Virus record (IMG/VR): IMGVR_UViG_3300033144_004391
Span: 1-46,130 of that record
Length of the DNA stretch: 46,130 nucleotides
Source of the DNA: a virus
Strand: one strand, 5' to 3'
Below are positions 2,052-43,720 of this stretch, piece by piece (position 1 is the first letter of the stretch; every line of letters starts with the position of its first letter). Both the position numbers and the translations under genes were made by a program. Below the pieces are notes generated by a model. That model made no database searches. It was not told where the DNA came from and was given only the letters and a program-made list of their open reading frames with translations.

Positions 2052-2627
2052 TTACCTTGGTAAAACCAGTTTACCTAGCTTTTTTAGAGCAGCCATAACA
2101 CGAGCAGGCTTCTTAACATAAATCTTAGACAACGGATTTTTCTTTGATTGCCATGGCTCGCGCAATTCTTCCGCAGAACCTTGCCGACAATTATCCCTCT
2201 CAGTTGGAGTTAATGTATTCTCGGTGTCATCAAGCTGGAACTTTCTCACATCCTTACGGCGAGTATTGTAATAACGCCAAACGTCCTCGGCTTCTCCACT
2301 TACCGTTTCCCTATCAGAAATCAATCCAGCGGCTACCTTGGAAGCGAATTCAATGGCGACATCATAAAGCAACGGCCCCCAACCCTTCACTGCCCCTGAT
2401 AGGTCAACAGTCAACGCACCACCACAATCCCATTCCGGCTCCTCTAAGTAAACAGAACCCCAAATATCGCCCCCGCCCGCTCGTTTACCGTTTCTGTATA
2501 TCTCAACCGCATAACTACCGTTTGAACCCTTAATACCTACAGAATATCCGTCAGGCAAGTCTTTCGGCCCTTTCGCAGCTTCCAACAACAGTAGAAGAGC
2601 GCGTTCCATCCCCAAATTAGTTGTCAT
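2052..2627 (-). CDS. Putative internal head protein with LxE|A leader
   Basis: The product has 191 residues. Residues 7-19 read MERALLLLLEAAK, a hydrophobic leader ending in L-L-E|A. This matches the (L/I)-x-E|(A/G/S) site cut by T4-type prohead proteases and resembles the capsid-targeting leaders of T4 internal proteins. The same leader, identical over 40 bp of DNA, starts the next gene upstream (2646-3290). The body is acidic at first (VYLEEPEWDCGG, VDLSGAVKGWGPLLYDVAIEF) and basic at the end (KKNPLSKIYVKKPARVMAALKKLGKLVLPR), which would suit DNA contact. No enzyme family is recognised. I infer that it is packaged in the head and processed there. Confidence 0.7.
   Translation of the reverse strand: MTTNLGMERALLLLLEAAKGPKDLPDGYSVGIKGSNGSYAVEIYRNGKRAGGGDIWGSVYLEEPEWDCGGALTVDLSGAVKGWGPLLYDVAIEFASKVAAGLISDRETVSGEAEDVWRYYNTRRKDVRKFQLDDTENTLTPTERDNCRQGSAEELREPWQSKKNPLSKIYVKKPARVMAALKKLGKLVLPR
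2571..2610 (-). repeat. 40-bp exact repeat, copy 1 (head-targeting leader)
   Basis: This segment is identical, third codon positions included, to 3252-3291. It encodes MERALLLLLEAAK in the same reading frame in both genes. Downstream of it the two genes are unrelated. Confidence 0.97.
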
Positions 2628-2645
2628 AGTATGCTTCTCACCAAG

Positions 2646-3290
2646 TTATGATCCTCTAACTTTACGAAAGGACGCTACTGTCCTCTTAAACTTTGCAAGT
2701 CCTTCTCTCTCATACCCCCTTCTTCTCCGCGACCTTATTTTTTGAAAATGATCCCGCCGTTGATCGCCAATATGGTCTTTTACTCCTGAAGAAAATTGTG
2801 TGCATGATATTTCCCTAATAATCCGCTCATCGTAGACCGCGATCTCGGTCGAGCCTCCTGGTAACTTTTCGGTCACCCCTGTAATACCCACACGGGCCAA
2901 CATTAGACGAGCAATATTAGGCCCAACTTCATAGACTAACGACTTGATTCCAATGATACCTCCGTAGGCATTATCTGGACCTAAAAGTTCTCTAGTCAAC
3001 TTCTTGATTCGTCCCTTGGGGTCGATTCCGTAATCAAGTACACCACGCATATCGAGGCTAACCTCACACAACCATGCATCTCTTCGCTTCTTCTGAGAGT
3101 ATTTACAATACCGCATCGCAGTATCTCGACAAGTAGAGAAGTAAAACCCTGGTCCTAAAGGTGGCCTCGCGTAACCTTCCCCTTTTCCAAATGACGACGC
3201 ATTAAATTCCACACCTTTAGGTTTTGACCCACAATGATAAGCTCGCATACGTTTCGCAGCTTCCAACAACAGTAGAAGAGCGCGTTCCAT
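2646..3290 (-). CDS. Putative packaged ADP-ribosyltransferase (H-Y-E type) with prohead-protease leader
   Basis: The product has 214 residues. The ATG at 3290 forms TGATG with the upstream stop and has GGAG seven bases upstream. Residues 1-13 are the leader MERALLLLLEAAK; T4-type prohead protease would cut L8-L9-E10|A11. What follows reads like an ADP-ribosyltransferase: Y18-H19-C-G-S22 for the NAD-binding His-Gly-Ser/Thr, P47-G-F-Y-F-S52 followed by a helix for the Tyr motif, and S147-T-E149-I-A-V-Y-D for the catalytic Glu strand. Several phages (T4 Alt is the model) package such an enzyme and inject it to modify host proteins. The tail (SRRRRGYEREGLAKFKR) is very basic. Both the family call and packaging are inference from motifs. 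Confidence 0.62.
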   Translation of the reverse strand: MERALLLLLEAAKRMRAYHCGSKPKGVEFNASSFGKGEGYARPPLGPGFYFSTCRDTAMRYCKYSQKKRRDAWLCEVSLDMRGVLDYGIDPKGRIKKLTRELLGPDNAYGGIIGIKSLVYEVGPNIARLMLARVGITGVTEKLPGGSTEIAVYDERIIREISCTQFSSGVKDHIGDQRRDHFQKIRSRRRRGYEREGLAKFKRTVASFRKVRGS

Positions 3291-3291
3291 C
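3252..3291 (-). repeat. 40-bp exact repeat, copy 2 (head-targeting leader)
   Basis: Identical to 2571-2610. It covers the start codon and the first 13 codons of the ADP-ribosyltransferase-like gene. Confidence 0.97.
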
Positions 3292-3655
3292 AACAGTCTC
3301 CGGCAGCGATCATGTTAATAGTGGTCTCGTTGGCACCAATGGTTACAAAAAGAGCAGTAATACCGCTCTCATTCATAGTGACCATGCCGCCTTTAAGGTT
3401 AAACCCAGCTTCGGTATCAACGTTAAATTTAACGAGAACTTCATAATCAGAGTTAATAAAAATCCTTTTGGCTAACGTAACCCCTCCCAAACTAATCTGA
3501 AAGTTAGCGGCTGTCCCTGCGGGGATTTTTATAGGTTGATGCGTTGTCACACACTCATAGTCTGCTGAGTCGCTGATGACTTGTTTAGCTTCTTGCGATT
3601 TTGTTGTTGATTCGATGCTCTCAAATGAGGCAGATATTTTTACAGTTTTAGCCAT
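3290..3655 (-). CDS. Putative virion structural protein (beta-sandwich-like)
   Basis: The product has 121 residues. It shows alternating hydrophobic strands, SLGGVTLAKRIFINSDYEVLVKFN and ALFVTIGANETTINMIAAG, typical of small beta-sandwich decoration or tail-fibre-related proteins. The ATG at 3655 has GGAG eleven bases upstream inside a promoter-like motif (3664-3679). Its stop overlaps the start of the ADP-ribosyltransferase-like gene by one base (TGATG), so the two are likely made together. The structural call rests on composition and context. Confidence 0.65.
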   Translation of the reverse strand: MAKTVKISASFESIESTTKSQEAKQVISDSADYECVTTHQPIKIPAGTAANFQISLGGVTLAKRIFINSDYEVLVKFNVDTEAGFNLKGGMVTMNESGITALFVTIGANETTINMIAAGDC

Positions 3656-4859: not shown

Positions 4860-5128
4860 CTTTTTCTTATCCTTGACCCGAAGTAGCTTTTCGGTCTGGG
4901 CAACTTCTTCTTCTTCCCTCCCGGTTTATCTGGTGCAATAACTCTGCGATGCTCAAGGTCACGTTCTCGGCGTCTTTTACGCGACCGCATCAAACTACTC
5001 GCCTGCCCAACCTCACCAGCAACTCTCCGGTTCAATCTGTACATAAGATTACGACGCTGGAAGTGCATTCCCTCCCCCAGCACTAAACGAGCTATAACCC
5101 TTGTTCTCTCAATTAAATTAAGGATCAT
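4856..5128 (-). CDS. Small highly basic protein of unknown function
   Basis: The product has 90 residues, more than a third of them Arg or Lys (RSRKRRRERDLEHRR, GGKKKKLPRPK, SRIRKR). It overlaps the terminase gene stop by 4 bases (ATGA) and the zinc-ribbon gene start by 4 bases, so the three are translated as a coupled set. The charge suggests DNA or RNA binding, perhaps in head assembly or packaging. I do not recognise a family. Confidence 0.6.
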   Translation of the reverse strand: MILNLIERTRVIARLVLGEGMHFQRRNLMYRLNRRVAGEVGQASSLMRSRKRRRERDLEHRRVIAPDKPGGKKKKLPRPKSYFGSRIRKR

Positions 5129-7131
5129 GTCACAATATACCTCGGCAACCCTTTTTCATTATCCTTATTATCTGGCTTCTCGTCCGGCCATAAATAGTTA
5201 CCACCCGTTTGCCATGTGCCTTTAACAACAGGATCATCACTATACCCTTTTGATGGTACATAAACTCGGTGACCTGTGCTTATTTCTGTTAAATACCAAA
5301 TAGTGGCACCCCAAACGTCAGCCAGATCTTTAGACCCTCTCAAGGGATGATCTATTTTACCTTTATCTGTCCTCTCAAGCCTGCGCAATTCCTTACGTAA
5401 CACCTCAGAGTATGGACAGTGAACCCGCCGCTCATAAAGCGAAGCGCGAGCCGTGAGGTATTGCATCGGCTTACGATCCATTGAGATTTCAATAACCTTT
5501 AAGCCATGCTTTTTGAATAGCTGGGCGTTTGGTGGGCGGCTCCACTGGTCCATCGATACTGACCTGATAGGAAGACCATTCTCCTGAAGCGTATAAATCA
5601 AATTACGAACGCACTCATGCTCAATTTCTCCAGCAGACGGTGGAATAATACGCAATACTGCATCGATATGAATAACAGGTGCGTATTCTTCCCCTTCTTT
5701 TCCGGTGCCACTATTACGTCTCACAACCTTAGTCATACCAGCGTCGTGGGCTATACAAAAGCCTGTAGCGTCTTCTTTTACCGACATATCAAGGGCTACA
5801 TGACGCATAGCTCCAGGGCAACAAAGCGGTGCCGGTTCCCCACGCATATTTGTTGACATGAATTTATCCCAATGAATAACTAGATCCTCTTCAGTCGTCC
5901 ATTCAGAAACCCCGAAAATATGGGGCATATCGTGCGCCATCATTTCATCAATAAAAGTCCTATTGGTGATAAACGGGTGAGCAACCTCAACTGAAACGCC
6001 AGCTTTATCTCGAAGTGACCCTATGGGATCGCGCTCAAAATCAGGCAAGAAGTCATTAGGAAAATCAATACCATCTTCGCCGCGAGTCAACTTGGCGTCC
6101 TTATCAATAACACGAGAGCGCCCTGTTTCTGGGTTGAATGCTAAGGTATGCCACTTTTGATCGGCGTATGAATCTGGCGCTACATCCCAAGCGGAATAGT
6201 CGCGCACGAACACCCCAAGAGACTGCATATAGGTTTCTATTTCTCCTTCTGTCTTCGGCGGCTTAGATAAAGACTCCTGCGCAGCCCTGATACGTCTCTC
6301 AGTAAAATCTTCTGCGCCCCGCTTTGATGACACAAGGAACACAAAACCTCTAACCCCGTGTTTAGAAAAGCGAGACTGGATACGGCTAACAAGACCGTTA
6401 TAGATAACCTCGGCTTTATCATATGCCTCGTCATCTGACATCGTAGACATCTTACCCCGGCCCATGAAGTTACCTTCGTCCACCAACCCAGCAATAACAT
6501 CCATACCAAGGATATGAGCGTTGTTGGAGGTGCCGCCGATAATATAAATACCTTTATCTGGAAATCTAACCTCTTCCTTTGTCTCGATAAATTTGCCGCG
6601 AAAGAATGGTGATAAGTTGAGCTTGCCTGCTATCTGACCAAATGCCACCCTGCGAGCAAGCTCTTTTGTCTTTGAAATCGGCGCGATATAAAGAGGCGAG
6701 CCGGGAGATAGTCCAAGAGTTGTCTGCGGATTCTTTAAGCATAAAAGCTCATAGAGAACGCGCATGATACACACTGTCGCGGTAAACGTTTTACCAACGC
6801 CAATCCCGCCTGTAAGAATGTATTCATGATAATCACCATTGAAGAAATCAATGATGTCTTGTTTATGTCTTGGAAATATTGACTTATGAATATCCCCAAC
6901 TAATTCGGGGTCATTAATCCACTGCTCTATTGGTACTGGTTGAATCTCCCATTGATCCGCTGCTATCTCTTGACCAATCGAACTAGAACCAGTTCCAATC
7001 TCTTCTTCGATGATCATCATGGCGCATCTTCGCTCACTCTCAGACAAATCGCCAAGCTCATAACCAATAAGCTTTGCTGCCTCTTCGGGCGTCCTATAAG
7101 AACGAAAATGCCCCTTCTCTTTAATTATCAT
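5125..7131 (-). CDS. Terminase large subunit (DNA packaging ATPase/nuclease)
   Basis: The product has 668 residues, somewhat long for the family. The ATPase domain has Walker A GGIGVGKT (residues 108-115) after YHEYILT, and a Walker B-like VIAGLVDEGNF near residue 215, where Asp-Glu are the catalytic pair. The C-terminal half carries RNase H-like nuclease features: HVALDMSVKEDATGFCIAHD (first acidic residue), SVSMDQWSRPPNAQLFKKHG, and a final Asp in KDLADVWGATIWYL. Together these drive DNA into the procapsid and cut it. The small subunit candidate lies immediately upstream (7151-7726). The ATG at 7131 follows TAGGTAGG. Confidence 0.92.
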   Translation of the reverse strand: MIIKEKGHFRSYRTPEEAAKLIGYELGDLSESERRCAMMIIEEEIGTGSSSIGQEIAADQWEIQPVPIEQWINDPELVGDIHKSIFPRHKQDIIDFFNGDYHEYILTGGIGVGKTFTATVCIMRVLYELLCLKNPQTTLGLSPGSPLYIAPISKTKELARRVAFGQIAGKLNLSPFFRGKFIETKEEVRFPDKGIYIIGGTSNNAHILGMDVIAGLVDEGNFMGRGKMSTMSDDEAYDKAEVIYNGLVSRIQSRFSKHGVRGFVFLVSSKRGAEDFTERRIRAAQESLSKPPKTEGEIETYMQSLGVFVRDYSAWDVAPDSYADQKWHTLAFNPETGRSRVIDKDAKLTRGEDGIDFPNDFLPDFERDPIGSLRDKAGVSVEVAHPFITNRTFIDEMMAHDMPHIFGVSEWTTEEDLVIHWDKFMSTNMRGEPAPLCCPGAMRHVALDMSVKEDATGFCIAHDAGMTKVVRRNSGTGKEGEEYAPVIHIDAVLRIIPPSAGEIEHECVRNLIYTLQENGLPIRSVSMDQWSRPPNAQLFKKHGLKVIEISMDRKPMQYLTARASLYERRVHCPYSEVLRKELRRLERTDKGKIDHPLRGSKDLADVWGATIWYLTEISTGHRVYVPSKGYSDDPVVKGTWQTGGNYLWPDEKPDNKDNEKGLPRYIVT

Positions 7132-7150: not shown

Positions 7151-7726
7151 TCACACACCCTCCTTAGCCTCCACGGTAATTGTCTTAGGCACGATTTTAA
7201 GAGCCTTACTAACAGCCGCAAGCACTCGACGCCGTGATTTATCATCATCCAATGTAGATAGTGGGCTATCTTCACCGAAACGCTCAGAGAAAGATATTTT
7301 ATGCTCTGTCCTGATATTTAAGTCCTGACCAGCCTTCGGGAAAACTCCCGTAGTTATAAGAACCTCAGTCAAAGTCTTTGTCGCTTTAATCGCTGTATTA
7401 AGAAAGCCGTTCTTACCCATCTCACTATTAGCGCCCGCATACTCCATAAGCGCGTTCTCGCGGATGTAAAGCAGCGAGTCCATGACATTACCAAGCATGT
7501 CACCAATAGCTTCACGCGACTTAATCATAGACTCGATATGATCTGCGGATTGCTTCTTTATATAAGCAGCATCCGCGTCTATCGTGCGCCGATCCACTTT
7601 GCAAAGATCAGCAATGACAGTATACGGGGTGCCTTGAAAGAGCATCTCGCGCACGAGCGCACGGCGTTTCTCGATAGACTCAAAATCCTTAGCCAGTCTC
7701 ACAGGCTCCATCTTATCGTCAGTCAT
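7151..7726 (-). CDS. Probable terminase small subunit
   Basis: The product has 191 residues. The N-terminal region contains a helix-turn-helix (ALVREMLFQGTPYTVIADL then VDRRTIDADAAYIKK), the usual DNA-recognition part of small terminases, followed by a helical middle (EAIGDMLGNVMDSLLYIRE) suited to ring assembly. It sits directly upstream of the large subunit, the standard gene order. The ATG overlaps the stop of the 796-residue gene as ATGA and has GGAGG five bases upstream. The function is inferred from HTH, size and position. Confidence 0.72.
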   Translation of the reverse strand: MTDDKMEPVRLAKDFESIEKRRALVREMLFQGTPYTVIADLCKVDRRTIDADAAYIKKQSADHIESMIKSREAIGDMLGNVMDSLLYIRENALMEYAGANSEMGKNGFLNTAIKATKTLTEVLITTGVFPKAGQDLNIRTEHKISFSERFGEDSPLSTLDDDKSRRRVLAAVSKALKIVPKTITVEAKEGV

Positions 7727-10113
7727 GCAACCCTCCCGAACAATTGACGTAAATTACCTCTCAACTGATTCGGCCTGTCCTCGGTCATAATAGCCACTAA
7801 ACGATCACCAAACTCTAAGAATAGTTGTACCGACTCTGACATAAAGATCAGCTTCTTCAAAGCCTCAATTTCCTTACTCTTAGCTCTGGTTTGTCGCCCT
7901 TTCTTAATACGTGCAATACGTGCCTTTAATATTCTATCGTAATCACGGAAATTGCCTGTTTTCTTGGCGTCGTCTCTCATTGTTTTCATAAACACATTAA
8001 ACTCAGCCTTAGTGCGAACAGGCTTAGTAAGAAGACCAGCTATATCCTCTATGTCGCCTTTCGAGTAAGAGCTAGGTGCAAATTGTTGTGTTGTGTCTAC
8101 TCTCGAAGGCTTATCTAACCCCTTAACATTTGGTATAGGAACATAAAGATCCTTTTTCGGCTTCAAAAGTCCTCTCTTGTTTAACCATTTCTCGATATCA
8201 AACAAAGACACTACACCAACATAATCAGTCGCCAAATTATCTATTGGCTGGCCTGTCTTGCTGTCCTTCAAAGGCCACTCTACTGCAATACGTTTCTTGG
8301 AGAATTCAAGTTTTGCAAGTTCTTGTTGTGATTCTTTACTTGGTTTTTTCTTTATTTTGTTTACTAACTCTTTGATTTCTTTATTAATCGTCCTTATCTC
8401 TTTCAACGCAGACCTACGATTAAGTAACCATTCGCGCACGGCTCGAACAATATCCTGTTTATTAAGTAGACTCTTCAAATAATTTATAAACGTGCCTGTG
8501 TCAACACGCTTACCACTGCCAGAAAGTCCTAATGCCCTCTCTGGGTCTGAAACCGGAAGACCCTTCTTTGAATCTTTACCCAATTGTTTCTTAGCTCTAC
8601 CACCAGCGTCAACGTCGCCAGCCTTGATCTTTACTTGTCTAAAAACGTTGTATATATTCATGGGACTGCCAGTTACTTTACTTTTGACAGCCGGAATAAG
8701 TATATCCCGCTTATTGCCCTCTTTATCAGGTTTAGGATTAGAAATATCCGGCAATCCACTCAACTTCCAATCCCTAATCGCAGCATAAACTTCTTCGGGC
8801 GTTTTCATACTCCTAAGCAACTCAATGAATTTTGGTTTGTCAGCTTTAGTGTAAGGAATAATTTCAAGCTCTTTAGGTGCAAATATTGGTTTATAAACTT
8901 CTTCAGGAGCTTTGAGACGTGGTGGTAATTTTACTGTCCAAGGATCGCCACCAGGCAACGACATAACAATCTTATCGCCTGGAAACAACTCTCTGGTCAG
9001 CGCCAGAGACGGCTCTCCGAGCAATTTCCTTATTTCAGCCCACACATCATGGATCTGCTTCTTTATAAAATCTTTAATTGTTTCTTCAGTAGCACTACCT
9101 TTTTTCTTAGCCTCCAACACGCTATTAGCGAGTTCGCTTAATTTCTTGTCATCTGGCATACCCTGAATTATCTTACTTATAGTATTTTTCTTCAAGCCCA
9201 TCCCAGCTTTGTTAGGTTTAAGCGAGATGAGTCCGTGTTTTTGTAACCTGTGTAAAGGTTGGTCAACGGGGCCAAAGATTAAGTCTGCAATACGATATTT
9301 GAATTGAGATAACAATGATTCGTAGTTGTCGCCTTTAGTTGTCGCCTTCTTCAATGACGTTATGTATGAGCCAATTTGCTGTTGGATAACATTAACGCTT
9401 TTATGGTCAAGACCTATCTTAGACATACGAAGCATAAGATCCTCTTCAGACGGTGTATCTACTAAATCGTTGAGAGATATCTCCTTACCTGTCAATTTAG
9501 ATTTTTCTCTTTTTAGTATCCCCTGTGCATTTTTATTAACTACAGATAAAAGTGTCTTGAATAGTCTTTCAATACTCGCCCCACCAGGGGTTGTACTAGC
9601 TTTACTACTACCCCCTTTGGTCCACCGTTTCGATTGTGCTACCAAAAGACGATATAGGCCAAGCAGAGGACTGCCCATTGTCCCAATTTTCTTAGTACCA
9701 ATCCTACTAAAAACATCATTCACAACGTCTTGAGGAGTAAGCTTAAGTTGTTCTGGATGGGAATTAACAGTAATATGTTTACGTATCCCGTTCAATGCTG
9801 ATCTTTCAAGCATAGGAAGTAATTTACTGTAGAGTTTAGCGAGACCTTCAGACGCTTTGGGGTTGTTATGAGTCTTTTCTAGCTCTGTAACAAGATCTAC
9901 AATCTCTGCCTCTGTAAAATCATTAGCAACACCAAGAGACTCCTTCTCTGCTTCTTCCTCGTCTTCTATCTGATTAGTTTCTCTAGCGACTTCGTCATTA
10001 GCGGTGGGTGTAAGATTGTTTTGGTTGCCTATTTCACTAATAAACAATTTCTCAAAATCGTCTTTTTTAGCCTCGAATAGATATGTCAACCGTTCAATTA
10101 AAATAGTATTCAT
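7723..10113 (-). CDS. Large putative internal head protein with LxE|A leader and sigma2-like segment
   Basis: The product has 796 residues. Residues 5-17 (LIERLTYLFEAKK) resemble the MERALLLLLEAAK leader of two other proteins here, and L12-F13-E14|A15 fits a T4-type prohead protease site. Residues about 84-166 resemble sigma-70 region 2 of ECF type: a helix with SALNGIRKHI, then LTPQDVVNDVFSRI, then LLGLYRLLVAQSKRW; LNDLVDTPSEEDLMLRM follows near 214. The rest is charged, helical and Lys-rich (NKEIKELVNKIKKKPSKESQQ) with no polymerase or protease motif I can see. It lies beside the terminase. I infer an ejected or core protein; the sigma resemblance is weak. Confidence 0.6.
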   Translation of the reverse strand: MNTILIERLTYLFEAKKDDFEKLFISEIGNQNNLTPTANDEVARETNQIEDEEEAEKESLGVANDFTEAEIVDLVTELEKTHNNPKASEGLAKLYSKLLPMLERSALNGIRKHITVNSHPEQLKLTPQDVVNDVFSRIGTKKIGTMGSPLLGLYRLLVAQSKRWTKGGSSKASTTPGGASIERLFKTLLSVVNKNAQGILKREKSKLTGKEISLNDLVDTPSEEDLMLRMSKIGLDHKSVNVIQQQIGSYITSLKKATTKGDNYESLLSQFKYRIADLIFGPVDQPLHRLQKHGLISLKPNKAGMGLKKNTISKIIQGMPDDKKLSELANSVLEAKKKGSATEETIKDFIKKQIHDVWAEIRKLLGEPSLALTRELFPGDKIVMSLPGGDPWTVKLPPRLKAPEEVYKPIFAPKELEIIPYTKADKPKFIELLRSMKTPEEVYAAIRDWKLSGLPDISNPKPDKEGNKRDILIPAVKSKVTGSPMNIYNVFRQVKIKAGDVDAGGRAKKQLGKDSKKGLPVSDPERALGLSGSGKRVDTGTFINYLKSLLNKQDIVRAVREWLLNRRSALKEIRTINKEIKELVNKIKKKPSKESQQELAKLEFSKKRIAVEWPLKDSKTGQPIDNLATDYVGVVSLFDIEKWLNKRGLLKPKKDLYVPIPNVKGLDKPSRVDTTQQFAPSSYSKGDIEDIAGLLTKPVRTKAEFNVFMKTMRDDAKKTGNFRDYDRILKARIARIKKGRQTRAKSKEIEALKKLIFMSESVQLFLEFGDRLVAIMTEDRPNQLRGNLRQLFGRVA

Positions 10114-36995: not shown

Positions 36996-37445
36996 TCATG
37001 GCGTACCGCCGTTTCTTGCTAATCGGCTCATTTCCACGCAGCGATCCATCGTATTACTGTCGAGTCCTCTTAGCGGCTCCTCGCTGTCCCAAGGGATCGG
37101 CAGAGTCGCAAACTCGTTCGCCCATAGGATAGCAATTGCCTTCCGGCTTAGGCCAGACACCGCCGACAATCCGCTGTGCCGGTGTGTCACGTTCCAAGGC
37201 CCACGATTCTCTCCCCAAGCGCGATGCACTGCAAAGTGGTCGCCCACTGGAATCGCCTCGACAATCTTTTCGTCGTCACTCGCCAACTTAAGCATGAAGC
37301 TCTTGCCGGAAGCGATGCGCTTCGCTTTACCCTCCGCGACCTTATCACGAAAGAACTTTTTCACGTATTCGACATCCCCATCATCTAATTTAGATAGGAG
37401 CTTTCCCATCGTAATATCAGTAATTGACACTGATTTGGTTGACAT
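36996..37445 (-). CDS. Unknown small protein
   Basis: The product has 149 residues from the ATG at 37445 (AAAGGAG upstream). It has a helical, charged N-terminus (KLLSKLDDGDVEYVKKFFRDKVAEGKAKRI) and a mixed C-terminus with RHSGLSAVSGLSRKAIAILWANEFATLPIPWD. Single-gene cassette: promoter motif at 37464-37474, terminator at 36977-36990. The family is not recognised. Confidence 0.65.
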   Translation of the reverse strand: MSTKSVSITDITMGKLLSKLDDGDVEYVKKFFRDKVAEGKAKRIASGKSFMLKLASDDEKIVEAIPVGDHFAVHRAWGENRGPWNVTHRHSGLSAVSGLSRKAIAILWANEFATLPIPWDSEEPLRGLDSNTMDRCVEMSRLARNGGTP

Positions 37446-37463
37446 AATAATCTCCTTTGTTAA

Positions 37464-37474
37464 TTGAATTACCA
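37464..37474 (-). promoter_or_regulatory. Small-cassette motif TGGTAATTCAA
   Basis: It stands between a terminator hairpin and the AAGGAG of the gene at 36996-37445. The same 11-mer occurs at 39128, 42494 and 43298, with close variants elsewhere. Confidence 0.55.
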
Positions 37475-37482
37475 TCGGCTAA

Positions 37483-37502
37483 AAGCCCCGGTCAAAGGGC
37501 TT
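37483..37502 (-). terminator. Small-cassette terminator
   Basis: AAGCCC / GGGCTT stem followed by TTTT on the minus strand, just after the stop of the gene at 37506-37784. Confidence 0.75.
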
Positions 37503-37505
37503 CGT

Positions 37506-37784
37506 TCATTGCGCGTCGTCGTAGGCTAGTAGCTTCTCGCCAGGGTGGTCCTCCTTGCGAAAGCCCCGCACCGTGATCGGCTTTATGTGCCACGTATCCA
37601 CGCCCCCTTCGGCTTGAATTCGCTTGCCGAAGCCGACCACGACTTCCGCACCGCAGCCGGGGCAGCGGTAGCGGTCGCCGCTGCTGTAGGCTGTCGGGTC
37701 GCAGCCCCCGTGGAACACGGGAAAGCCGTTACGAGTGCAACGCATCTGAAGCCGACACTTAACACAAACTGGTCTATGCAACAT
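37506..37784 (-). CDS. Small zinc-finger protein
   Basis: The product has 92 residues from the ATG at 37784, which is spaced seven bases from AAGGAG (the ATG at 37790 is too close). Cys pairs are PVCVKCRLQMRC and YRCPGCGAEV, with a GGCD between, enough for one or two zinc ribbons. The C-terminal part is charged. A DNA-, RNA- or protein-binding role is likely; nothing is more specific. Confidence 0.65.
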   Translation of the reverse strand: MLHRPVCVKCRLQMRCTRNGFPVFHGGCDPTAYSSGDRYRCPGCGAEVVVGFGKRIQAEGGVDTWHIKPITVRGFRKEDHPGEKLLAYDDAQ

Positions 37785-37804
37785 TTCCATTCTCCTTTTT
37801 AAGT

Positions 37805-37815
37805 TTGAATTGCCA
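37805..37815 (-). promoter_or_regulatory. Small-cassette motif (variant TGGCAATTCAA)
   Basis: It stands upstream of the zinc-finger gene at 37506-37784, between hairpin and ribosome site, with one base changed from TGGTAATTCAA. Confidence 0.5.
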
Positions 37816-37823
37816 TCGGCTTA

Positions 37824-37841
37824 AAGCCCCCGAAGGGGCTT
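37824..37841 (-). terminator. Small-cassette terminator
   Basis: AAGCCCC / GGGGCTT stem with T tract; it overlaps the stop codon of the gene at 37840-38019. Confidence 0.8.
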
Positions 37842-38019
37842 AACCTCTCACAGTCTTCAAAATGTATTGAAGCCTTTTTTCAGTCTCCTCCATAACCGAA
37901 ACCAATGCCAGATTAGTTTCAGGGTTTTGGTATTTATCAAGCCATTCTCTTGTCTTGATACTGGCAAGCTTAATACATTGAAAAGCTTCTTCAGCTTCCG
38001 TTACCGCCTCAGATTTCAT
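37840..38019 (-). CDS. Unknown 59-residue helical protein
   Basis: The ATG at 38019 has AAGGAGG upstream. The product is one or two long helices (VTEAEEAFQCIKLASIKTREWLDKYQ, VMEETEKRLQYILKTVRG). There is no motif. Terminators stand on both sides, but no promoter motif precedes it, so it may rely on read-through from the gene at 38052. Confidence 0.6.
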   Translation of the reverse strand: MKSEAVTEAEEAFQCIKLASIKTREWLDKYQNPETNLALVSVMEETEKRLQYILKTVRG

Positions 38020-38032
38020 AATTCCTCCTTGA

Positions 38033-38052
38033 AAAGCCCCCAAAGGGGCTTT
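38033..38052 (-). terminator. Small-cassette terminator
   Basis: AAAGCCCC / GGGGCTTT stem directly at the stop of the gene at 38052-38393. Confidence 0.75.
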
Positions 38053-38393
38053 CAGTCTATCTCTAGCTCAACACGCAGAATGCCAATACTAGCTCTGGTC
38101 CGATCAATTAATGCCATCATATCCTGAGCATATTTATTGCAGATTGTCGCGTATTCATAATCGACGGCGCAGTCGCCACTTTCAATCAATTCGCTCATTG
38201 CAATCAATATGTTATCGAACGTTTCAAGCTCGGCAACTTCTTGGCCTTTAGGGGTTGCCTCGTTACATAAAGTGCATCTGTTTGCGACCAAATTATTCAT
38301 ATCAAAAAACGCGGGTTGGTCCCCCGAAAGCTTAAAACTATCTTTCGGGAATAACGCGGGAAAAAGCTGGTTCTCACAAAGTATACATTTCAT
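38052..38393 (-). CDS. Small zinc-binding protein of unknown function
   Basis: The product has 113 residues from the ATG at 38393 (AAAGGAG upstream; the longer frame to 38465 crosses the promoter repeat). Two Cys pairs, MKCILCENQ and NRCTLCNEA, would hold one zinc. The rest is helical (AELETFDNILIAMSELIESGD, YAQDMMALIDRTRASIGIL). Both promoter-like motif classes lie upstream (38419-38445 and 38474-38489). Confidence 0.65.
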   Translation of the reverse strand: MKCILCENQLFPALFPKDSFKLSGDQPAFFDMNNLVANRCTLCNEATPKGQEVAELETFDNILIAMSELIESGDCAVDYEYATICNKYAQDMMALIDRTRASIGILRVELEID

Positions 38394-38418
38394 AATGATC
38401 TCCTTTTGGGTTGTATCC

Positions 38419-38445
38419 TTATAAAGTAAAAGCGATGATGGACCG
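38419..38445 (-). promoter_or_regulatory. GTCCATCATCG-type early promoter candidate
   Basis: The minus strand reads GGTCCATCATCGCTTTTACT, then TTATAAGG. TATAAG would be the -10 box, and an A/T-rich TTTTT stretch lies upstream. The gene at 38052-38393 follows 26 bases later. Three more copies exist at 40105, 40161 and 43695. Confidence 0.55.
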
Positions 38446-38473
38446 AGAAAAACTTCTAAGACCATTGATACCC

Positions 38474-38489
38474 CTACCTTGTGTTACCG
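38474..38489 (-). promoter_or_regulatory. Promoter-like motif, CGGTA family
   Basis: The minus strand reads CGGTAACACAAGGTAG, between a terminator hairpin and the GTCCATCATCG element. Confidence 0.45.
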
Positions 38490-38495
38490 CAAAAA

Positions 38496-38513
38496 GCCCC
38501 CTTAATGGGGGGC
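38496..38513 (-). terminator. Small-cassette terminator
   Basis: GCCCCC / GGGGGC stem with TTTTT on the minus strand, overlapping the end of the gene at 38502-38864. Confidence 0.8.
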
Positions 38514-38864
38514 AATAGCGAACACGCCGCGCTCATTACATAAACAATACCGAGCATTCTGCGTTAATGCACGGCTCTTTTTTATAAAGAAATGAGAACC
38601 CCTGTAAGGGTTGTAAGAAATAGCTTCCAAACAACCCTTACCAATGTTCGCAACAGTGCCGACAACGAACGCATGAACGTTCTTTCTGCGCTGTCTCAGA
38701 ACCCGCTGACGCCCTTTCTCTGATACTTTGAAGGCGCAGTTCTTGAGACTAATCAAAGACGTATGGTCAACAACTAACCAACGCCCATCGACCTTCTTTT
38801 GAACTGAGTAAACGACTAGGCCAGGGCTGGATCGAGTAAGATTTACATACACTCTTACCAACAT
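38502..38864 (-). CDS. Conserved small protein (VYxNL...VSEKGRQRVL...KNVHAFVVG type)
   Basis: The product has 120 residues. The pattern RVYVNLTRSSPGLVVYSV, LKNCAFKVSEKGRQRVLRQRRKNVHAFVVGTV, ISYNPYRGSHFF recalls a conserved hypothetical protein found in many phages and bacteria; I recognise the pattern from memory but know of no function. It is basic and compact. It follows the gene at 38867 by two bases, so the two form a pair ended by the hairpin at 38496-38513. Confidence 0.7.
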   Translation of the reverse strand: MLVRVYVNLTRSSPGLVVYSVQKKVDGRWLVVDHTSLISLKNCAFKVSEKGRQRVLRQRRKNVHAFVVGTVANIGKGCLEAISYNPYRGSHFFIKKSRALTQNARYCLCNERGVFAIAPH

Positions 38865-38866
38865 AA

Positions 38867-39109
38867 TCAGTCCTTCTTAGTCATCATGAATTTGAGCAAT
38901 TCACGCGCCTTTTGTTTAGCTCCATCCATTGAATTAGCTTTGCAGTCTCGTGTTACAGTGACCTGGACACCCCATTTACCAGTGGAATACTGGAAAACTC
39001 GAATATCAGTCCTTTCGTTAGAAGCAAACCTATAACCTTTCACAGTCGGTATGGTACTCATGTCATCGCATTCTTGATCATGCAACGTTCCCCAACAGAT
39101 ATTTTTCAT
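38867..39109 (-). CDS. Unknown small protein
   Basis: The product has 80 residues from the ATG at 39109 (AAAAGGAG upstream). It has beta strands (RFASNERTDIRVFQYSTGKWGVQVTVTRD) followed by one helix (DGAKQKARELLKFMM), a small alpha/beta fold reminiscent of dsRNA- or DNA-binding domains, though I cannot assign one. First gene of a two-gene cassette. Confidence 0.65.
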   Translation of the reverse strand: MKNICWGTLHDQECDDMSTIPTVKGYRFASNERTDIRVFQYSTGKWGVQVTVTRDCKANSMDGAKQKARELLKFMMTKKD

Positions 39110-39127
39110 AACAATCTCCTTTTAAGT

Positions 39128-39138
39128 TTGAATTACCA
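39128..39138 (-). promoter_or_regulatory. Small-cassette motif TGGTAATTCAA
   Basis: Exact copy of the motif, preceded by GCGA and followed by ACTTAAAAGGAG and the gene at 38867-39109. Confidence 0.55.
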
Positions 39139-39148
39139 TCGCAGAAAA

Positions 39149-39162
39149 GCCCCCGAAGGGGC
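39149..39162 (-). terminator. Small-cassette terminator
   Basis: GCCCC / GGGGC stem with a TTTT tract on the minus strand after the gene at 39167-39517. Confidence 0.8.
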
Positions 39163-39166
39163 CAAT

Positions 39167-39517
39167 CTACTTGATCTTACTGAAGTTATCCTCCATCCAA
39201 TAACCAATTTCACTGTCATTTTCAAAATACCCGACAATGCGAGGGCATTTCTTGTGTGTGAGAACAGTCCCCCACTTTTTCGGTCCCTTCATCTCAGGTC
39301 GATGGTAGGACGACCCTACCTTTTTATTAGGTACCTGAGCGACTCTTCTCGGTTTTGGATTATGCCAAATCTCGTAAAAATCCGGCGCAACCGCGTAAAC
39401 CCTGAATCGACCGCTCGCGAGCCAAAGGCAATCAGGGGGGGTCTCCTCCAGCTTCGCTTTTGGCTTCGCTTTTGGCTTCGCTTTTGGCTTCGCTTTTGGC
39501 TTCGCTTTAGTTGCCAT
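39167..39517 (-). CDS. Unknown protein with Lys-Pro-Lys-Ala repeat tail at the N-terminus
   Basis: The product has 116 residues from the ATG at 39517, overlapping the upstream stop by 11 bases. Residues 3-22 repeat A-K-P-K five times, an unfolded basic tail of the histone H1 kind that would bind DNA. The body contains FRVYAVAPDFYEIWHNPKPRRV and KCPRIVGYFENDSEIGYWMEDNF. The function is unknown; a DNA-binding protein is a reasonable guess. Confidence 0.65.
   Translation of the reverse strand: MATKAKPKAKPKAKPKAKPKAKLEETPPDCLWLASGRFRVYAVAPDFYEIWHNPKPRRVAQVPNKKVGSSYHRPEMKGPKKWGTVLTHKKCPRIVGYFENDSEIGYWMEDNFSKIK
39451..39510 (-). repeat. 12-bp tandem repeat in the 39167 gene
   Basis: GCTTCGCTTTTG (given strand) is repeated four times plus a partial fifth unit, encoding A-K-P-K units. 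Copy number may vary between relatives by slippage. Confidence 0.95.
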
Positions 39518-40058
39518 CTTTAGCCCCCTCAACCGCGCTCCAGGGCAGATTAACACTGATATTAGGAAGCTCTGGTATTACAAGCTCTCGGCGACTTCTA
39601 AAAGTCGAGTCGAGCAATTGATACCTCTTGCTATACTCAGTAAGTCGCTTCCCGTCTTCAGTCTTATCCCAGGCTTTGCCTTGGTTATGCGAATAAACAA
39701 CGATGGACTCTAAGATACTCTTAACACAATCATCGTATGCTTCCATAGCCAAAGATAATTCGTCTTCGGCTACATAACTAGATTTGAGGAAGTGATCAAA
39801 ATGCTTACTCGCACGTTCGACAGCCCCCTCCGCAGATGCAAATTTCTCAAGCTCATCGTATAGGAACAGATTTTCAATAACTGGCAGCTTTTGATCAGAC
39901 TCGGTCTCCAAATCTTTCAATCGCTGACGAGCTTCAAGAACATCTTGTTTAAGTTGAACTAAAGAATTTGCAATCGTTGCCATATAGGAAGAAGAGCCTT
40001 CGATTGCTTCTGTAAGAGAAGCAATTTTTTGCTCTAACTTCTGATGTTCATTTGACAT
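39507..40058 (-). CDS. Unknown coiled-coil protein
   Basis: The product has 183 residues from the ATG at 40058 (AAGGAG seven bases upstream). Residues 5-55 form a coiled coil (EQKIASLTEAIEGSSS, LVQLKQDVLEARQRLKDLETES). More helices follow. There is no motif. A CCTCA/TGAGG hairpin at 40074-40086 lies just ahead of the ribosome site. Two GTCCATCATCG-type elements drive it. Confidence 0.65.
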   Translation of the reverse strand: MSNEHQKLEQKIASLTEAIEGSSSYMATIANSLVQLKQDVLEARQRLKDLETESDQKLPVIENLFLYDELEKFASAEGAVERASKHFDHFLKSSYVAEDELSLAMEAYDDCVKSILESIVVYSHNQGKAWDKTEDGKRLTEYSKRYQLLDSTFRSRRELVIPELPNISVNLPWSAVEGAKDGN

Positions 40059-40104
40059 CAAAATTCTCCTTTCCTCAAAATGAGGATTTTGGTTTTCTCT
40101 ACCC

Positions 40105-40130
40105 TTAAAAAGTAAAGTCGATGATGGACG
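40105..40130 (-). promoter_or_regulatory. GTCCATCATCG-type early promoter candidate
   Basis: The minus strand reads CGTCCATCATCGACTTTACT, then TTTTAAGGG, upstream of the gene at 39507-40058. The -10-like part is weaker (TTTAAG). Confidence 0.5.
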
Positions 40131-40160
40131 TCCAAAAAACTTTGGGACTTCCTACACTCG

Positions 40161-40186
40161 TATAAAGAGAAAGCGATGATGGACCG
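40161..40186 (-). promoter_or_regulatory. GTCCATCATCG-type early promoter candidate (tandem)
   Basis: The minus strand reads GGTCCATCATCGCTTTCTCT, then TTATACG, with CTTAAAACTTTTTTT upstream. It lies 56 bases ahead of the copy at 40105, so the gene at 39507 has two. Confidence 0.55.
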
Positions 40187-40219
40187 AAAAAAAGTTTTAA
40201 GTCTTTTGTTTTTCAGGAC

Positions 40220-40723
40220 TTAAGAAATCTTGTTCGAGGTACCGTTTGAAGACGAAGGGGAGCTTTTGAGGGGATGGTTCTGTTGATCTTGAGCTAGAAT
40301 TTTCAAGAGATGTAAACGAGTATTTTCCGTGTCCTCTCGACTCCTGGTTATCTCTACATCTTGAGAAGGTAAGTTTTGCTCGGCGACCTTGACTATTTCA
40401 TAATGATGGCCGGAAGCTGGCTTCCAAGAAATTTCCTCAACGTCGAGATACGGCCCCCCCTCACCATTGGCGAGGAAGACGGCAAAATGTCTTTGTTCTT
40501 GTACTTCCCCATCATCAATTTCTGTTTCTTTAACAAAAAAAGCTTCTTCCATAATGTCAATTATTTTAATACCTATTCCATAAACTAATCTTTTAATTCC
40601 GTTACCTGGACCTACAAACCTACTTGTCCTTTTCACAGTAGGCTGTCTCTTAAGGGTTGTATTGGTTATAACAAACGGCACTGCCTCCCCTGCCTTAAGT
40701 TTTATCTTTTTTATTCCTGTCAT
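40220..40723 (-). CDS. Unknown protein
   Basis: The product has 167 residues from the ATG at 40723 (GGAGG seven bases upstream), overlapping the upstream gene by 29 bases. It has a basic, beta-like N-terminal half (KKIKLKAGEAVPFVITNTT, GNGIKRLVYGIGIKIIDIMEEAFFV), then HFAVFLANGEGGPYLDVEEI, and a polar low-complexity end (SSPSSSNGTSN). The family is not recognised. Confidence 0.6.
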   Translation of the reverse strand: MTGIKKIKLKAGEAVPFVITNTTLKRQPTVKRTSRFVGPGNGIKRLVYGIGIKIIDIMEEAFFVKETEIDDGEVQEQRHFAVFLANGEGGPYLDVEEISWKPASGHHYEIVKVAEQNLPSQDVEITRSREDTENTRLHLLKILAQDQQNHPLKSSPSSSNGTSNKIS

Positions 40724-40994
40724 TTGGACGCCTCCCCTTATCCTTAGTTTTCTTACGATACTGGGTATCGCATTGAATAACACCTTTTAACCCCATCATT
40801 TCAGTGTAATCATATTCAGGGCATACCTTAAAATGAACTTCGCCCTCTTTATCAACGAAGGCGCTTACACCAAGGGCCACATCGTTAATTATTCGGACAA
40901 GTTTATGCAAGGCTGGTCGGCTACAAAGCACCATACCGTTTTGTCTCGCCCAATTAATTACAAAAGCTTTTTTCTCTGATTCACTTAATGACAT
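40695..40994 (-). CDS. Unknown small protein
   Basis: The product has 99 residues from the ATG at 40994 (AGGAGG seven bases upstream; the longer frame to 41024 crosses a promoter-like motif). It has helices (SESEKKAFVINWARQNG, ALHKLVRIINDVALGVS) and a very basic tail (YRKKTKDKGRRPNDRNKKDK). Nucleic acid binding is possible; no family is recognised. Confidence 0.6.
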   Translation of the reverse strand: MSLSESEKKAFVINWARQNGMVLCSRPALHKLVRIINDVALGVSAFVDKEGEVHFKVCPEYDYTEMMGLKGVIQCDTQYRKKTKDKGRRPNDRNKKDKT

Positions 40995-41005
40995 AACGTA
41001 ACCTC

Positions 41006-41023
41006 CTATGGTGTAGGATACCA
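41006..41023 (-). promoter_or_regulatory. Promoter-like motif, related to the CGGTA family
   Basis: The minus strand reads TGGTATCCTACACCATAG followed by GAGG. It has the TGGTA start and TAG end but a longer spacing than the others. Confidence 0.35.
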
Positions 41024-41057
41024 CGGCGAAAAAAAAGCCGCCGAAAAAAGAGCCGGA

Positions 41058-41405
41058 TCAGAACATCTCTGCACTGTCCGGCCCATTGTATCTCGTCTCA
41101 GGAGGCCACGGATACCTTTCATCCGCAAAGCTAAGGTCGCTATCCTCAACCTCATGGATATGAATCATGGCGTCTACACGTTCAAAGATCTTCCCGTCGC
41201 CTTTGTTGTGTAAGGCGCGAATCTCTGTTCGGAGCATTTTCCTGAAATAACCGTCAAATTCTGGTTCTTCTTCTGTCGGTGCAATGCCCATAGGCCACAA
41301 TGGAATGCGACCAGCGAAGAAGTCCTTTTTTAACTGCTCTTTGTTGCCAGGGTACTCCCAGAGATACTCTCTGTAGCCGTACTCCTCGTCAACGTAAACT
41401 TTCAT
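41058..41405 (-). CDS. Unknown small acidic protein
   Basis: The product has 115 residues and is acidic and Tyr/Trp-rich (VDEEYGYREYLWEYPGNKEQ, SFADERYPWPPETRYNGPDS), a composition often seen in phage proteins that mimic DNA or bind host enzymes. No assignment is possible. Single-gene cassette with AAGGAG before the ATG at 41405 and a variant motif at 41427-41436. Confidence 0.65.
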   Translation of the reverse strand: MKVYVDEEYGYREYLWEYPGNKEQLKKDFFAGRIPLWPMGIAPTEEEPEFDGYFRKMLRTEIRALHNKGDGKIFERVDAMIHIHEVEDSDLSFADERYPWPPETRYNGPDSAEMF

Positions 41406-41426
41406 AATAAACTCCTTTATTGAATT

Positions 41427-41436
41427 TTAATTACCA
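41427..41436 (-). promoter_or_regulatory. Small-cassette motif (variant TGGTAATTAA)
   Basis: Located between the hairpin at 41447-41460 and the ribosome site of the gene at 41058-41405; the TGGTAATT core is kept. Confidence 0.5.
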
Positions 41437-41446
41437 TCGCATTAAA

Positions 41447-41460
41447 GCCCCCGAAGGGGC
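41447..41460 (-). terminator. Small-cassette terminator
   Basis: GCCCC / GGGGC stem, loop GAA, TTTAAT on the minus strand, after the gene at 41468-41644. Confidence 0.8.
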
Positions 41461-41467
41461 TATTTAA

Positions 41468-41644
41468 TTAGGCTGGGGTCCAGCCAACATATGTAAATCG
41501 TCCACCGGAACCTTCAAGGCTCATAAGGGCGCTTGTCCCTGCGACCATTTCTTCAGTCTCGTAAACAATTGAGTATTTCTCTTCGCTCGGAAAATTTTCG
41601 TAGTGCAAACGAGCAGGATAAACTGGATTTTTATCTGGGTTCAT
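41468..41644 (-). CDS. Unknown 58-residue protein
   Basis: The ATG at 41644 follows AAGGAAACAATA. The product has PVYPARLHYENFPSEEKYSIVYETEEMVAG, beta-like, then GSGGRFTYVGWTPA. There is no motif. Its upstream region (41645-41700) lacks a clear TGGTAATTCAA motif. Confidence 0.55.
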   Translation of the reverse strand: MNPDKNPVYPARLHYENFPSEEKYSIVYETEEMVAGTSALMSLEGSGGRFTYVGWTPA

Positions 41645-41700
41645 TATTGTTTCCTTCAATTAGGACAGCGCGGAATTGCACTCTCACACATCGCATTAAA

Positions 41701-41714
41701 GCCCCCAAAGGGGC
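41701..41714 (-). terminator. Small-cassette terminator
   Basis: GCCCC / GGGGC stem with loop AAA or TTT, TTTAAT on the minus strand, after the gene at 41723-41983. Confidence 0.8.
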
Positions 41715-41722
41715 TAAATTGC

Positions 41723-41983
41723 TTAGATAAAAGGCAGGAATCGTTCCTCTGCTGATATCTTCTCGACAAACAACTTGCCGAGATTGACAGAAGCCTCATT
41801 GCGAAGATCTGAGCGACCTTCTGCAACTTGTTCAAGCCAGTTCACGCAAAGGCGCGTGAAGTTTTGCTGAAGCGTCCTATGGTCACGCGACATTTTTTCA
41901 ATGAACACTTCTTTAGGTTCATCGTTCATGTTGTTAATAAATCTACTCATGGCCTCGGCCATTTCTTTTCCGTTTAAGGACAT
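41723..41983 (-). CDS. Unknown small helical protein
   Basis: The product has 86 residues, mostly helical (GKEMAEAMSRFINNMN, LQQNFTRLCVNWLEQVAEG). AAAAGGAG precedes the ATG at 41983. Single-gene cassette. The family is not recognised. Confidence 0.65.
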   Translation of the reverse strand: MSLNGKEMAEAMSRFINNMNDEPKEVFIEKMSRDHRTLQQNFTRLCVNWLEQVAEGRSDLRNEASVNLGKLFVEKISAEERFLPFI

Positions 41984-42001
41984 AACAATCTCCTTTTAAG
42001 T

Positions 42002-42012
42002 TTGAGTTACCA
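42002..42012 (-). promoter_or_regulatory. Small-cassette motif (variant TGGTAACTCAA)
   Basis: Upstream of the gene at 41723-41983, followed by ACTTAAAAGGAG as in the other cassettes. Confidence 0.5.
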
Positions 42013-42020
42013 TCAGCTAA

Positions 42021-42038
42021 AAGCCCCCGAAAGGGCTT
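42021..42038 (-). terminator. Small-cassette terminator
   Basis: AAGCCC / GGGCTT stem with TTTT on the minus strand, overlapping the stop of the gene at 42037-42474. Confidence 0.75.
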
Positions 42039-42474
42039 AATAGCTTGGACACGATCCGTCGATTGCTATGGTTATCAGGTCCATGCAAACCTTATTAACC
42101 ACTCCCCAATCGATGTAAGCAGCAACGTCGTCATGGGCAGTCAATTCTGCCCATTGCGCAGTAGGAGCGTTGAAGTTTTGCCCACTTAAATAGCCCGTCC
42201 CTTCACACAAGGAAATTATAGCCACTTCAACACGAGTGTAATGCTCTATTGACTTCAACATGTCCCTCGGAGTGCTATACATACTGGGGCCAGCGACGAT
42301 GGAAATCTTAAACCTATCGCCGATAACAATCATCTTTTGCCATCCTCTATTATAAGAATGAAAAGTTACAGTTTCAGTAACAAAACGACCGAGCCTAAGC
42401 TCTTCAAGCCTTTGCTTACGCTGGGCTTGCACGTCCTGTAAATCTTTAGCTGCGTCTCTTTTTATTAATGTCAT
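42037..42474 (-). CDS. Unknown small protein
   Basis: The product has 145 residues. The start is charged and helical (RDAAKDLQDVQAQRKQRLEELRLGR), then beta-like (TETVTFHSYNRGWQKMIVIGDRFKISIV), ending GSCPSY. AAGGAG lies ahead of the ATG at 42474. Single-gene cassette. No family is recognised. Confidence 0.65.
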   Translation of the reverse strand: MTLIKRDAAKDLQDVQAQRKQRLEELRLGRFVTETVTFHSYNRGWQKMIVIGDRFKISIVAGPSMYSTPRDMLKSIEHYTRVEVAIISLCEGTGYLSGQNFNAPTAQWAELTAHDDVAAYIDWGVVNKVCMDLITIAIDGSCPSY

Positions 42475-42493
42475 AATAAACTCCTTTTTAAGT

Positions 42494-42504
42494 TTGAATT
42501 ACCA
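42494..42504 (-). promoter_or_regulatory. Small-cassette motif TGGTAATTCAA
   Basis: Exact copy upstream of the gene at 42037-42474. Confidence 0.55.
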
Positions 42505-42512
42505 TCAGGTAA

Positions 42513-42528
42513 AAGCCCCGTAGGGCTT
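42513..42528 (-). terminator. Small-cassette terminator
   Basis: AAGCCC / GGGCTT stem followed by TTTT on the minus strand, at the stop of the gene at 42527-42721. Confidence 0.75.
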
Positions 42529-42721
42529 AAACGTCAATTGCCTCCCAATCAATAGAGCCGTCCCTATTGACAAGCCCTGACTCAATCAAATCACGGGCCG
42601 TCCTTCCATAATGGCCCTGTAAAGTCCACGCCATACCAGACTTAATAAGATCCCCAAATAATTGGACTGTCTCAACAGCATTCATTTCCCCTGCTTCGTA
42701 CGACATTAATTTTGTAATCAT
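42527..42721 (-). CDS. Conserved small phage protein (LQGHYGRTA type)
   Basis: The product has 64 residues: MITKLMSYEAGEMNAVETV, LFGDLIKSGMAWTLQGHYGRTARDLIESG. This pattern, with LQGHYGRTA, recurs in many unrelated phages as a short early protein of unknown function. AAAAGGAG precedes the ATG. The recognition is from memory, not a search. Confidence 0.75.
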   Translation of the reverse strand: MITKLMSYEAGEMNAVETVQLFGDLIKSGMAWTLQGHYGRTARDLIESGLVNRDGSIDWEAIDV

Positions 42722-42760
42722 AACAATCTCCTTTTAGGTTTTAAGTAACATCGCCTTAAA

Positions 42761-42775
42761 GCCCCCTTGGGAGCT
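42761..42775 (-). terminator. Small-cassette terminator
   Basis: AGCTCCC / GGGGGCT imperfect stem followed by TTTAAGG on the minus strand, at the end of the gene at 42774-42986. The promoter motif of the downstream gene is degenerate here (GATGTTACTTAAAA). Confidence 0.6.
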
Positions 42776-42986
42776 AGGCTAGAAGAACGATCTCCTGTCT
42801 TAACTCTTCAGGGGATGTCTTCGCGAAGGCTAAACCTTTCTCCTGTGTGAAGACATAAAGCCTAAGCTCGTCCTCAACCTCGAAAGAATCCATCTCGCTT
42901 ATATAAAAAGAGCGACCAGGGAACGCCCTTAAACCAAAGGTCTCAGGGAACGTCTTAATAATCGCCGGAATGTCAAACTTTGCCAT
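42774..42986 (-). CDS. Unknown small protein
   Basis: The product has 70 residues, mixed alpha/beta (IIKTFPETFGLRAFPGRSFYISEM, DELRLYVFTQEKGLAF). GGAGG precedes the ATG at 42986, and the upstream gene stops one base before, so the two are coupled. No family is recognised. Confidence 0.65.
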   Translation of the reverse strand: MAKFDIPAIIKTFPETFGLRAFPGRSFYISEMDSFEVEDELRLYVFTQEKGLAFAKTSPEELRQEIVLLA

Positions 42987-42987
42987 T

Positions 42988-43278
42988 TCAATCCTCCATT
43001 AAATCCAAGTCATATGGTTCGACTTCAAAAATAGTTTCAACCCCGTAAGGCACTGCATCTGTCGGGTCATAATCGCCCACGATCCAGTACTTGACGCTAC
43101 AAACAGAAACCCTTGATTCCTCGATTTGAAGTGCATCTGGGATACCTTCGCAGAGCTTATTAATGCTATTACTAGAGCCAATAACGTATGGCTGGCCCCG
43201 TAAACTAATAGGCCAAGTACAAAGAACGAATTGATCGCCTTCGACTTTGGTACCTTTTGTTTTCGTCCTTGGTTGCAT
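42988..43278 (-). CDS. Unknown small acidic protein
   Basis: The product has 96 residues. It has beta-type strands (DQFVLCTWPISLRGQPYVIG, SRVSVCSVKYWIVGDYD) and an acidic end (VEPYDLDLMED). AAGGAGG lies before the ATG at 43278. First of a two-gene cassette. A second frame over the same bases (42999-43283) is a shadow. Confidence 0.65.
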   Translation of the reverse strand: MQPRTKTKGTKVEGDQFVLCTWPISLRGQPYVIGSSNSINKLCEGIPDALQIEESRVSVCSVKYWIVGDYDPTDAVPYGVETIFEVEPYDLDLMED

Positions 43279-43297
43279 AGCAACCTCCTTGTTTGAA

Positions 43298-43308
43298 TTG
43301 AATTACCA
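43298..43308 (-). promoter_or_regulatory. Small-cassette motif TGGTAATTCAA
   Basis: Exact copy upstream of the gene at 42988-43278. Confidence 0.55.
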
Positions 43309-43315
43309 TCTCCGA

Positions 43316-43333
43316 AAAGCCCCGCAGGGCTTT
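43316..43333 (-). terminator. Small-cassette terminator
   Basis: AAAGCCC / GGGCTTT stem with loop of four bases at the end of the gene at 43332-43676. Confidence 0.8.
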
Positions 43334-43676: not shown

Positions 43677-43694
43677 CTGGTCTCCTCTCTAAAG

Positions 43695-43720
43695 GTATAA
43701 AGAGAAGTCGATGATGGACC
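43695..43720 (-). promoter_or_regulatory. GTCCATCATCG-type early promoter candidate
   Basis: The minus strand reads GGTCCATCATCGACTTCTCT, then TTATACC, with CTTAAAACTTTTTTT upstream. It heads the early gene block. Confidence 0.6.

Follow-up and report, generated by a model that had tools for sequence, protein, structure and literature searches.

A 40-nucleotide repeat gives two unrelated phage genes a common leader that may act as a cleavable capsid tag

Why do two adjacent phage genes, whose products are otherwise unrelated, begin with the same stretch of DNA? The window analyzed here is the whole of IMG/VR record IMGVR_UViG_3300033144_004391 (46,130 bases). On its minus strand, the 40 nt at positions 2571 to 2610 and at 3252 to 3291 are identical, exactly where an earlier note on this DNA had placed them. 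The repeat runs from an ATG to Lys13 (39 nt), with one G 5′ of the ATG, and both copies encode the same 13 amino acids, MERALLLLLE-AAK. Copy A (3252..3291, encoding MERALLLLLEAAK at 3252 to 3290) starts the gene for an ART-like protein, and copy B (2571..2610, encoding MERALLLLLEAAK at 2571 to 2609) lies near the start of the gene for a GNAT-like protein. These are the only two copies in the record with up to three mismatches allowed, and none are expected in shuffled sequence. Behind the leader the two proteins have no similarity (best BLASTP E = 11). By calculation, about 24 million synonymous encodings of the leader peptide are possible, and its five leucines use four different codons. Since all silent positions match between the copies, selection on the peptide alone does not explain the identity; the DNA itself was copied recently. 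The earlier claims that the bodies are unrelated and that the tag was recently copied or converted were both borne out.

The genes of the leader locus all lie on the minus strand. The ART-like gene (2646..3290, 214 amino acids) begins exactly at the leader, and its ATG at 3290 overlaps the stop codon of an upstream 121-amino-acid gene (3290..3655) in the sequence TGATG. The gene of the GNAT-like "GWGPLLYD" family (2052..2627) encodes 191 amino acids from an ATG at 2627 or 185 from the leader's own ATG at 2609. It probably starts at ATG 2627, 18 nt before the leader, with the Shine-Dalgarno-like GGTGAG nine nt ahead, and from this start the leader forms residues 7 to 19 of MTTNLG-MERALLLLLEAAK. 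Both GGTGAG and ATG 2627 belong to the stretch between the ART-like stop codon and leader B (2611..2645), which is missing in the relative G028 described below. The leader had earlier been assigned to the start of both proteins; this holds for the ART-like gene, while the GNAT-like gene probably begins 18 nt upstream of it.

The reading that we consider likely, on the strength of sequence comparisons, is that MERALLLLLE acts as a cleavable N-terminal capsid-targeting sequence (CTS) of the T4 kind. The leader would carry the ART-like and GNAT-like proteins as cargo into the prohead core; an S77 prohead protease of T4 type, encoded past the left end of the window, would cut after Glu10; and the mature cargo, beginning AAK, would be ejected into the host along with the DNA. 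We infer packaging, cutting, injection and the enzyme activities from the evidence presented below. The leader DNA would have been recently copied or converted between the two genes, and it would provide homology for in-frame gain or loss of cargo genes, G028 being a one-leader form. Counting against this reading, the GNAT-like protein of this phage probably has six additional residues ahead of its leader.

In T4, CTSs are N-terminal propeptides of 10 to 19 residues that are cut by gp21 and are conserved among internal proteins that otherwise differ widely (PMC9026906, PMC3012670). The propeptides of IPII and IPIII are identical (PMC9026906), Ip1 to Ip3 have the leader alone in common and block different GmrSD enzymes (PMC12373910), and internal proteins vary between related phages (PMC9026906, PMC3012670, PMC12373910). 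The window resembles T4 IPI, IPII, IPIII and Alt in that a short N-terminal leader, cut in T4 by the prohead protease, is common to unrelated bodies. It differs in the leader sequence, in the GNAT-like partner and in that the leader DNA is itself a perfect repeat. Two features by which a CTS is recognized were found: (L/I)-x-E followed by a small residue is present as L-L-E↓A in both window leaders (arrows mark predicted cuts), and the same leader stands on unrelated mature parts in the window and in other contigs. The predicted scissile bond, Glu10↓Ala11, maps to 2577..2582 in copy B and to 3258..3263 in copy A (both minus strand). For copy B the prediction comes from GNAT-like homologues, and for copy A it is carried over from these homologues of the other protein, in which the Glu is invariant and the P3 Leu nearly so. 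In SPN3US, gp53 and gp54 are otherwise diverged head proteins with identical first 15 residues that include a protease site (PMC5694885); these two are paralogues with 34% identity and long propeptides, whereas the window tag has about 10 residues and stands on unrelated bodies. In P1 DarB, N-terminal residues are enough for head loading of a foreign protein; no consensus common to the Dar proteins was found (PMC9024508). The window leader is N-terminal like the DarB signal, and its head-loading role is putative.

The cut site is conserved among relatives of the GNAT-like protein. Viral contigs yielded 30 stretches in a degenerate DNA search for the GWGPLLYD core, and searching by alignment later recovered 45 viral loci of the family plus 4 in bacterial assemblies. 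When gene starts were compared across related phages, as the earlier note had proposed, Met1, Glu10 (of the L-x-E↓A/G/S cut) and core residues were invariant in 26 aligned members and Leu8 (P3) was nearly so, while the remaining leader varied. [LIVMF]xE[AGS] was found ahead of the domain in 31 of 34 matched members. The AlphaFold (AF2) model of the window protein has a mean pLDDT of 88.5, with only residues 1 to 8 below 50. Its best PDB fold match is the KKT23 acetyltransferase (E = 0.034, probability 0.89, TM 0.41), and several viral NAT_SF proteins are among the matches; the modeled fold appears, weakly, to be most like GNAT acetyltransferases. Searches of Pfam, PHROGs and NCBIfam, and a tblastn search of 50,697 phage records, gave no match to the family. 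Tagged GNAT-like genes are present in a Methylococcaceae MAG (contig L070) and a WOR-3 MAG (L069). An S77 gene was also found in the assembly to which L070 belongs, on contig C5, and therefore this is probably phage sequence binned with bacteria.

The S77 protease of T4 gp21 type (PF03420) was detected in 22 of the 50 records searched (12 of 29, and 10 of 21 in a second set). A link to the T4-type head was seen in the 11 records with a confident Gp23 capsid gene, all 11 of which have S77. Among records of at least 100 kb with an L-x-E leader, S77 is present in 13 of 15; none was found in G017 and G036 (both >100 kb), perhaps since they are fragments. G043 and G044, which form one lineage (at least 100 kb), have neither S77 nor an L-x-E leader and carry the repeated tag ASRVASR instead. 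The association of the L-x-E leader with S77 in records of at least 100 kb has a Fisher p of 0.04, with only one independent lineage on the no-leader side.

No prohead protease, portal or capsid gene was found in the window or in the 52.6-kb contig of G028, both of which are fragments. With no protease gene visible in the window, the tag might be cleaved by a protease other than the S77/T4 type, such as S78_2. In keeping with this, the cultured terminase relative JP1 has an S78_2 protease, and S77 was found neither in JP1 nor in the other cultured terminase relative, RHph_Y1_11. However, JP1 is not the nearest relative. The large terminase of the window (5125..7131, minus strand) is closest to those of G015 (346 bits) and then G045 (295 bits), with JP1 behind both (228 to 230 bits). 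These closest relatives are contigs with leader proteins, and both have S77 about 4 to 5 kb downstream of TerL. Portal, protease and capsid protein form a T4-type set in G015, and the tag of G045, MKRSEILQE↓AAKG, is similarly short. Moreover, a protease of HK97 type, S78 or S78_2, was found in 0 of 29 records with the GNAT-like family, and the G043/G044 lineage, which lacks S77, also lacks the L-x-E site. We regard cleavage by another class of protease as unlikely and retain S77 as the probable enzyme.

Leaders of this kind recur in other contigs. A leader profile finds, within single contigs, one lineage-specific start on many nonhomologous proteins, well above control. The lineage leaders recovered by the profile search include MKLLREYVRQLLSE, MKKLLTEWRKFLKE, MKxLRQYIRKILLTE, MKLLLENWREYLNE and others; against an other-lineage profile, the window leaders have modest scores (12.9 and 9.8; top control, 9.3). 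In 43 of 44 proteins from outside the GNAT-like core search, [LIVMF]xE directly follows the leader core, compared with a rate of 15% in windows of equal size taken from the rest of these proteins. We selected the 44 on the leader core alone, with the site ignored, and proteins of one lineage are not independent, which makes this comparison descriptive rather than a formal test. The tagged genes stand in tandem arrays of up to seven, with unrelated bodies and many overlaps of one base. Recognizable bodies include GNATs, a kinase, a transglutaminase-like protein and an HNH protein, as expected if these were injected effectors. Silent sites differ between most array members in these lineages, and therefore the peptide is kept there, not the DNA. 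The window pair is the freshest leader copy found.

In polyproteins, an L-x-E↓AAK site is internal, between modules and ahead of GNAT-like modules. Such a position is more in keeping with a site of cleavage than with a peptide that only targets. L062 (931 amino acids), L100 (937), L072 (956) and L014 (1383) combine a GNAT-like module with other domains and have L-x-E↓AAK between modules. The GNAT-like modules of L114 and L115, on contigs of 150 and 297 kb, lie in open frames of 1519 and 478 amino acids and are preceded by the repeated tag (A/S)ASRVASR(Y/F), without an L-x-E site; no S77 protease was found in these contigs. This repeat may be another kind of cargo tag, unrelated to the first and served by a different protease.

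Within the window, the search for further MERALLLLLE-type starts gave one weak candidate alone, a possible third tagged protein of 796 amino acids (7723..10113, minus strand). It begins MNTILIERLTYLFE↓AKK (shuffle p = 0.014, uncorrected), and its sole [LI]xE[AGS] site is at residue 14. Repeats of other kinds are present elsewhere in the window. An element of 56 to 66 nt, with some copies 89% alike, occurs at least seven times between small genes at 37443 to 43339 and consists, on the minus strand, of a terminator-like GCCCC..GGGGC and then a Shine-Dalgarno-like and start region. An element with TATAAAG and CGATGATGGAC has four copies (38410 to 38457, 40096 to 40198 and 43686 to 43760) and is perhaps a phage-specific promoter.

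The ART-like protein has, as read from its sequence, H19, Y50 (in GPGFYFST) and D154 (in EIAVYD), which fit the H-Y-D pattern of the ARTs of phage polyvalent proteins (PMC5512222); in H-Y-D ARTs the three residues lie in strands 1, 2 and 5, respectively. Its match to ART-PolyVal (PF18760) is below threshold, at 14.2 bits against a curated cut-off of 31.2, and a single-sequence fold prediction gave no reliable fold (pLDDT 35). The protein may nonetheless work as an ART. The T4 packaged protein Alt is an ADP-ribosyltransferase (PMC9026906, PMC3012670, PMC12373910), but of the R-S-E type, whereas the window protein resembles the H-Y-D type. Polyvalent proteins of the PF18760 kind have an ART domain with H, Y and D residues; the window differs from them in that its ART-like and GNAT-like parts are two small proteins, and each bears a tag. 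The L012 polyprotein joins ART-like and GNAT-like modules, with the site MLAE↓AAMK ahead of the GNAT-like module; its GPGIYLTS and DVAVYD parallel the ART-like motifs, but R replaces H. Neither the ART-like nor the GNAT-like protein matched a Pfam, PHROG or NCBIfam family above cut-off or had a match in phage records, and a PDB sequence search returned nothing. Single-protein searches of viral contigs found no relatives of these two or of a 207-amino-acid neighbor.

G028 (IMGVR_UViG_3300033155_001652) is 99.6% identical to the window over 42.97 kb. From the DNA that precedes the first leader, its sequence continues through only one leader and then straight into the GNAT-like body; its 52.6 kb contain no ART-like gene. 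The GNAT-like gene of G028 starts at the leader, in a TGATG overlap, like array genes elsewhere. This form is as expected for a product of leader-leader recombination or for the state before the ART-like gene came, and any direction of gain or loss would be inferred. The contig ends 74 nt from this junction, which may therefore be a chimera formed at the repeat during assembly or PCR. Repoila et al. reportedly proposed in 1994 that flanking promoter-bearing repeats serve as shuffling homology in T-even phages.

The absence from G028 of exactly the between-repeat segment also suits another explanation, in which the 40-nt repeat is chiefly a recombination scar: the ART-like gene would have come in by way of a short direct repeat, with the common peptide playing no part in targeting. 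The perfect DNA identity and the odd MTTNLG extension ahead of the downstream leader copy point the same way. A scar, however, does not account for repeat limits that coincide with the limits of the conserved peptide module, for the dozens of phages whose homologues of the downstream protein bear a leader of the same kind with an invariant Glu, or for other arrays that retain the peptide though silent sites differ, and we give it a low probability. It is highly improbable that the repeat serves in regulation or translation, as an RNA structure, promoter or binding site, and is coding by chance, as the peptide is kept with silent changes in other lineages, even though both copies are at gene starts in one operon and the upstream copy overlaps a stop codon. 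An RNA structure and a promoter were each considered for the repeat and rejected (folding not unusual, z = -0.24; no promoter excess).

Capsid tags common to unrelated cargo are known in T4, and so the modular capsid-loading signal proposed in the earlier note is not new in principle. For this locus the proposal gains partial support by comparison, from the invariant Glu, the leader on unrelated proteins, the S77 contigs and G028. The new elements are the ART-like/GNAT-like pair, the uncatalogued GNAT-like family, how widely lineage-specific tagged arrays occur, and the leader as a perfect DNA repeat, with a natural form that is missing one of the cargo genes. A limited literature search found no papers describing such arrays. 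On this reading the window captures a tag shortly after it was copied, and a close relative either lost one of the cargo genes or has yet to acquire it. Whether uncultured T4-headed phages have a general cargo-loading code, with a lineage leader across an effector array and the leader DNA as an in-frame swap handle, we judge to be evenly balanced. To our knowledge, phage proteins injected with the DNA are known for few cultured phages. If this code is real, the leader would predict the injected proteins of a phage from sequence alone, and in uncultured phages it would single out ART-like proteins, acetyltransferases, kinases and others as candidates for injected effectors.
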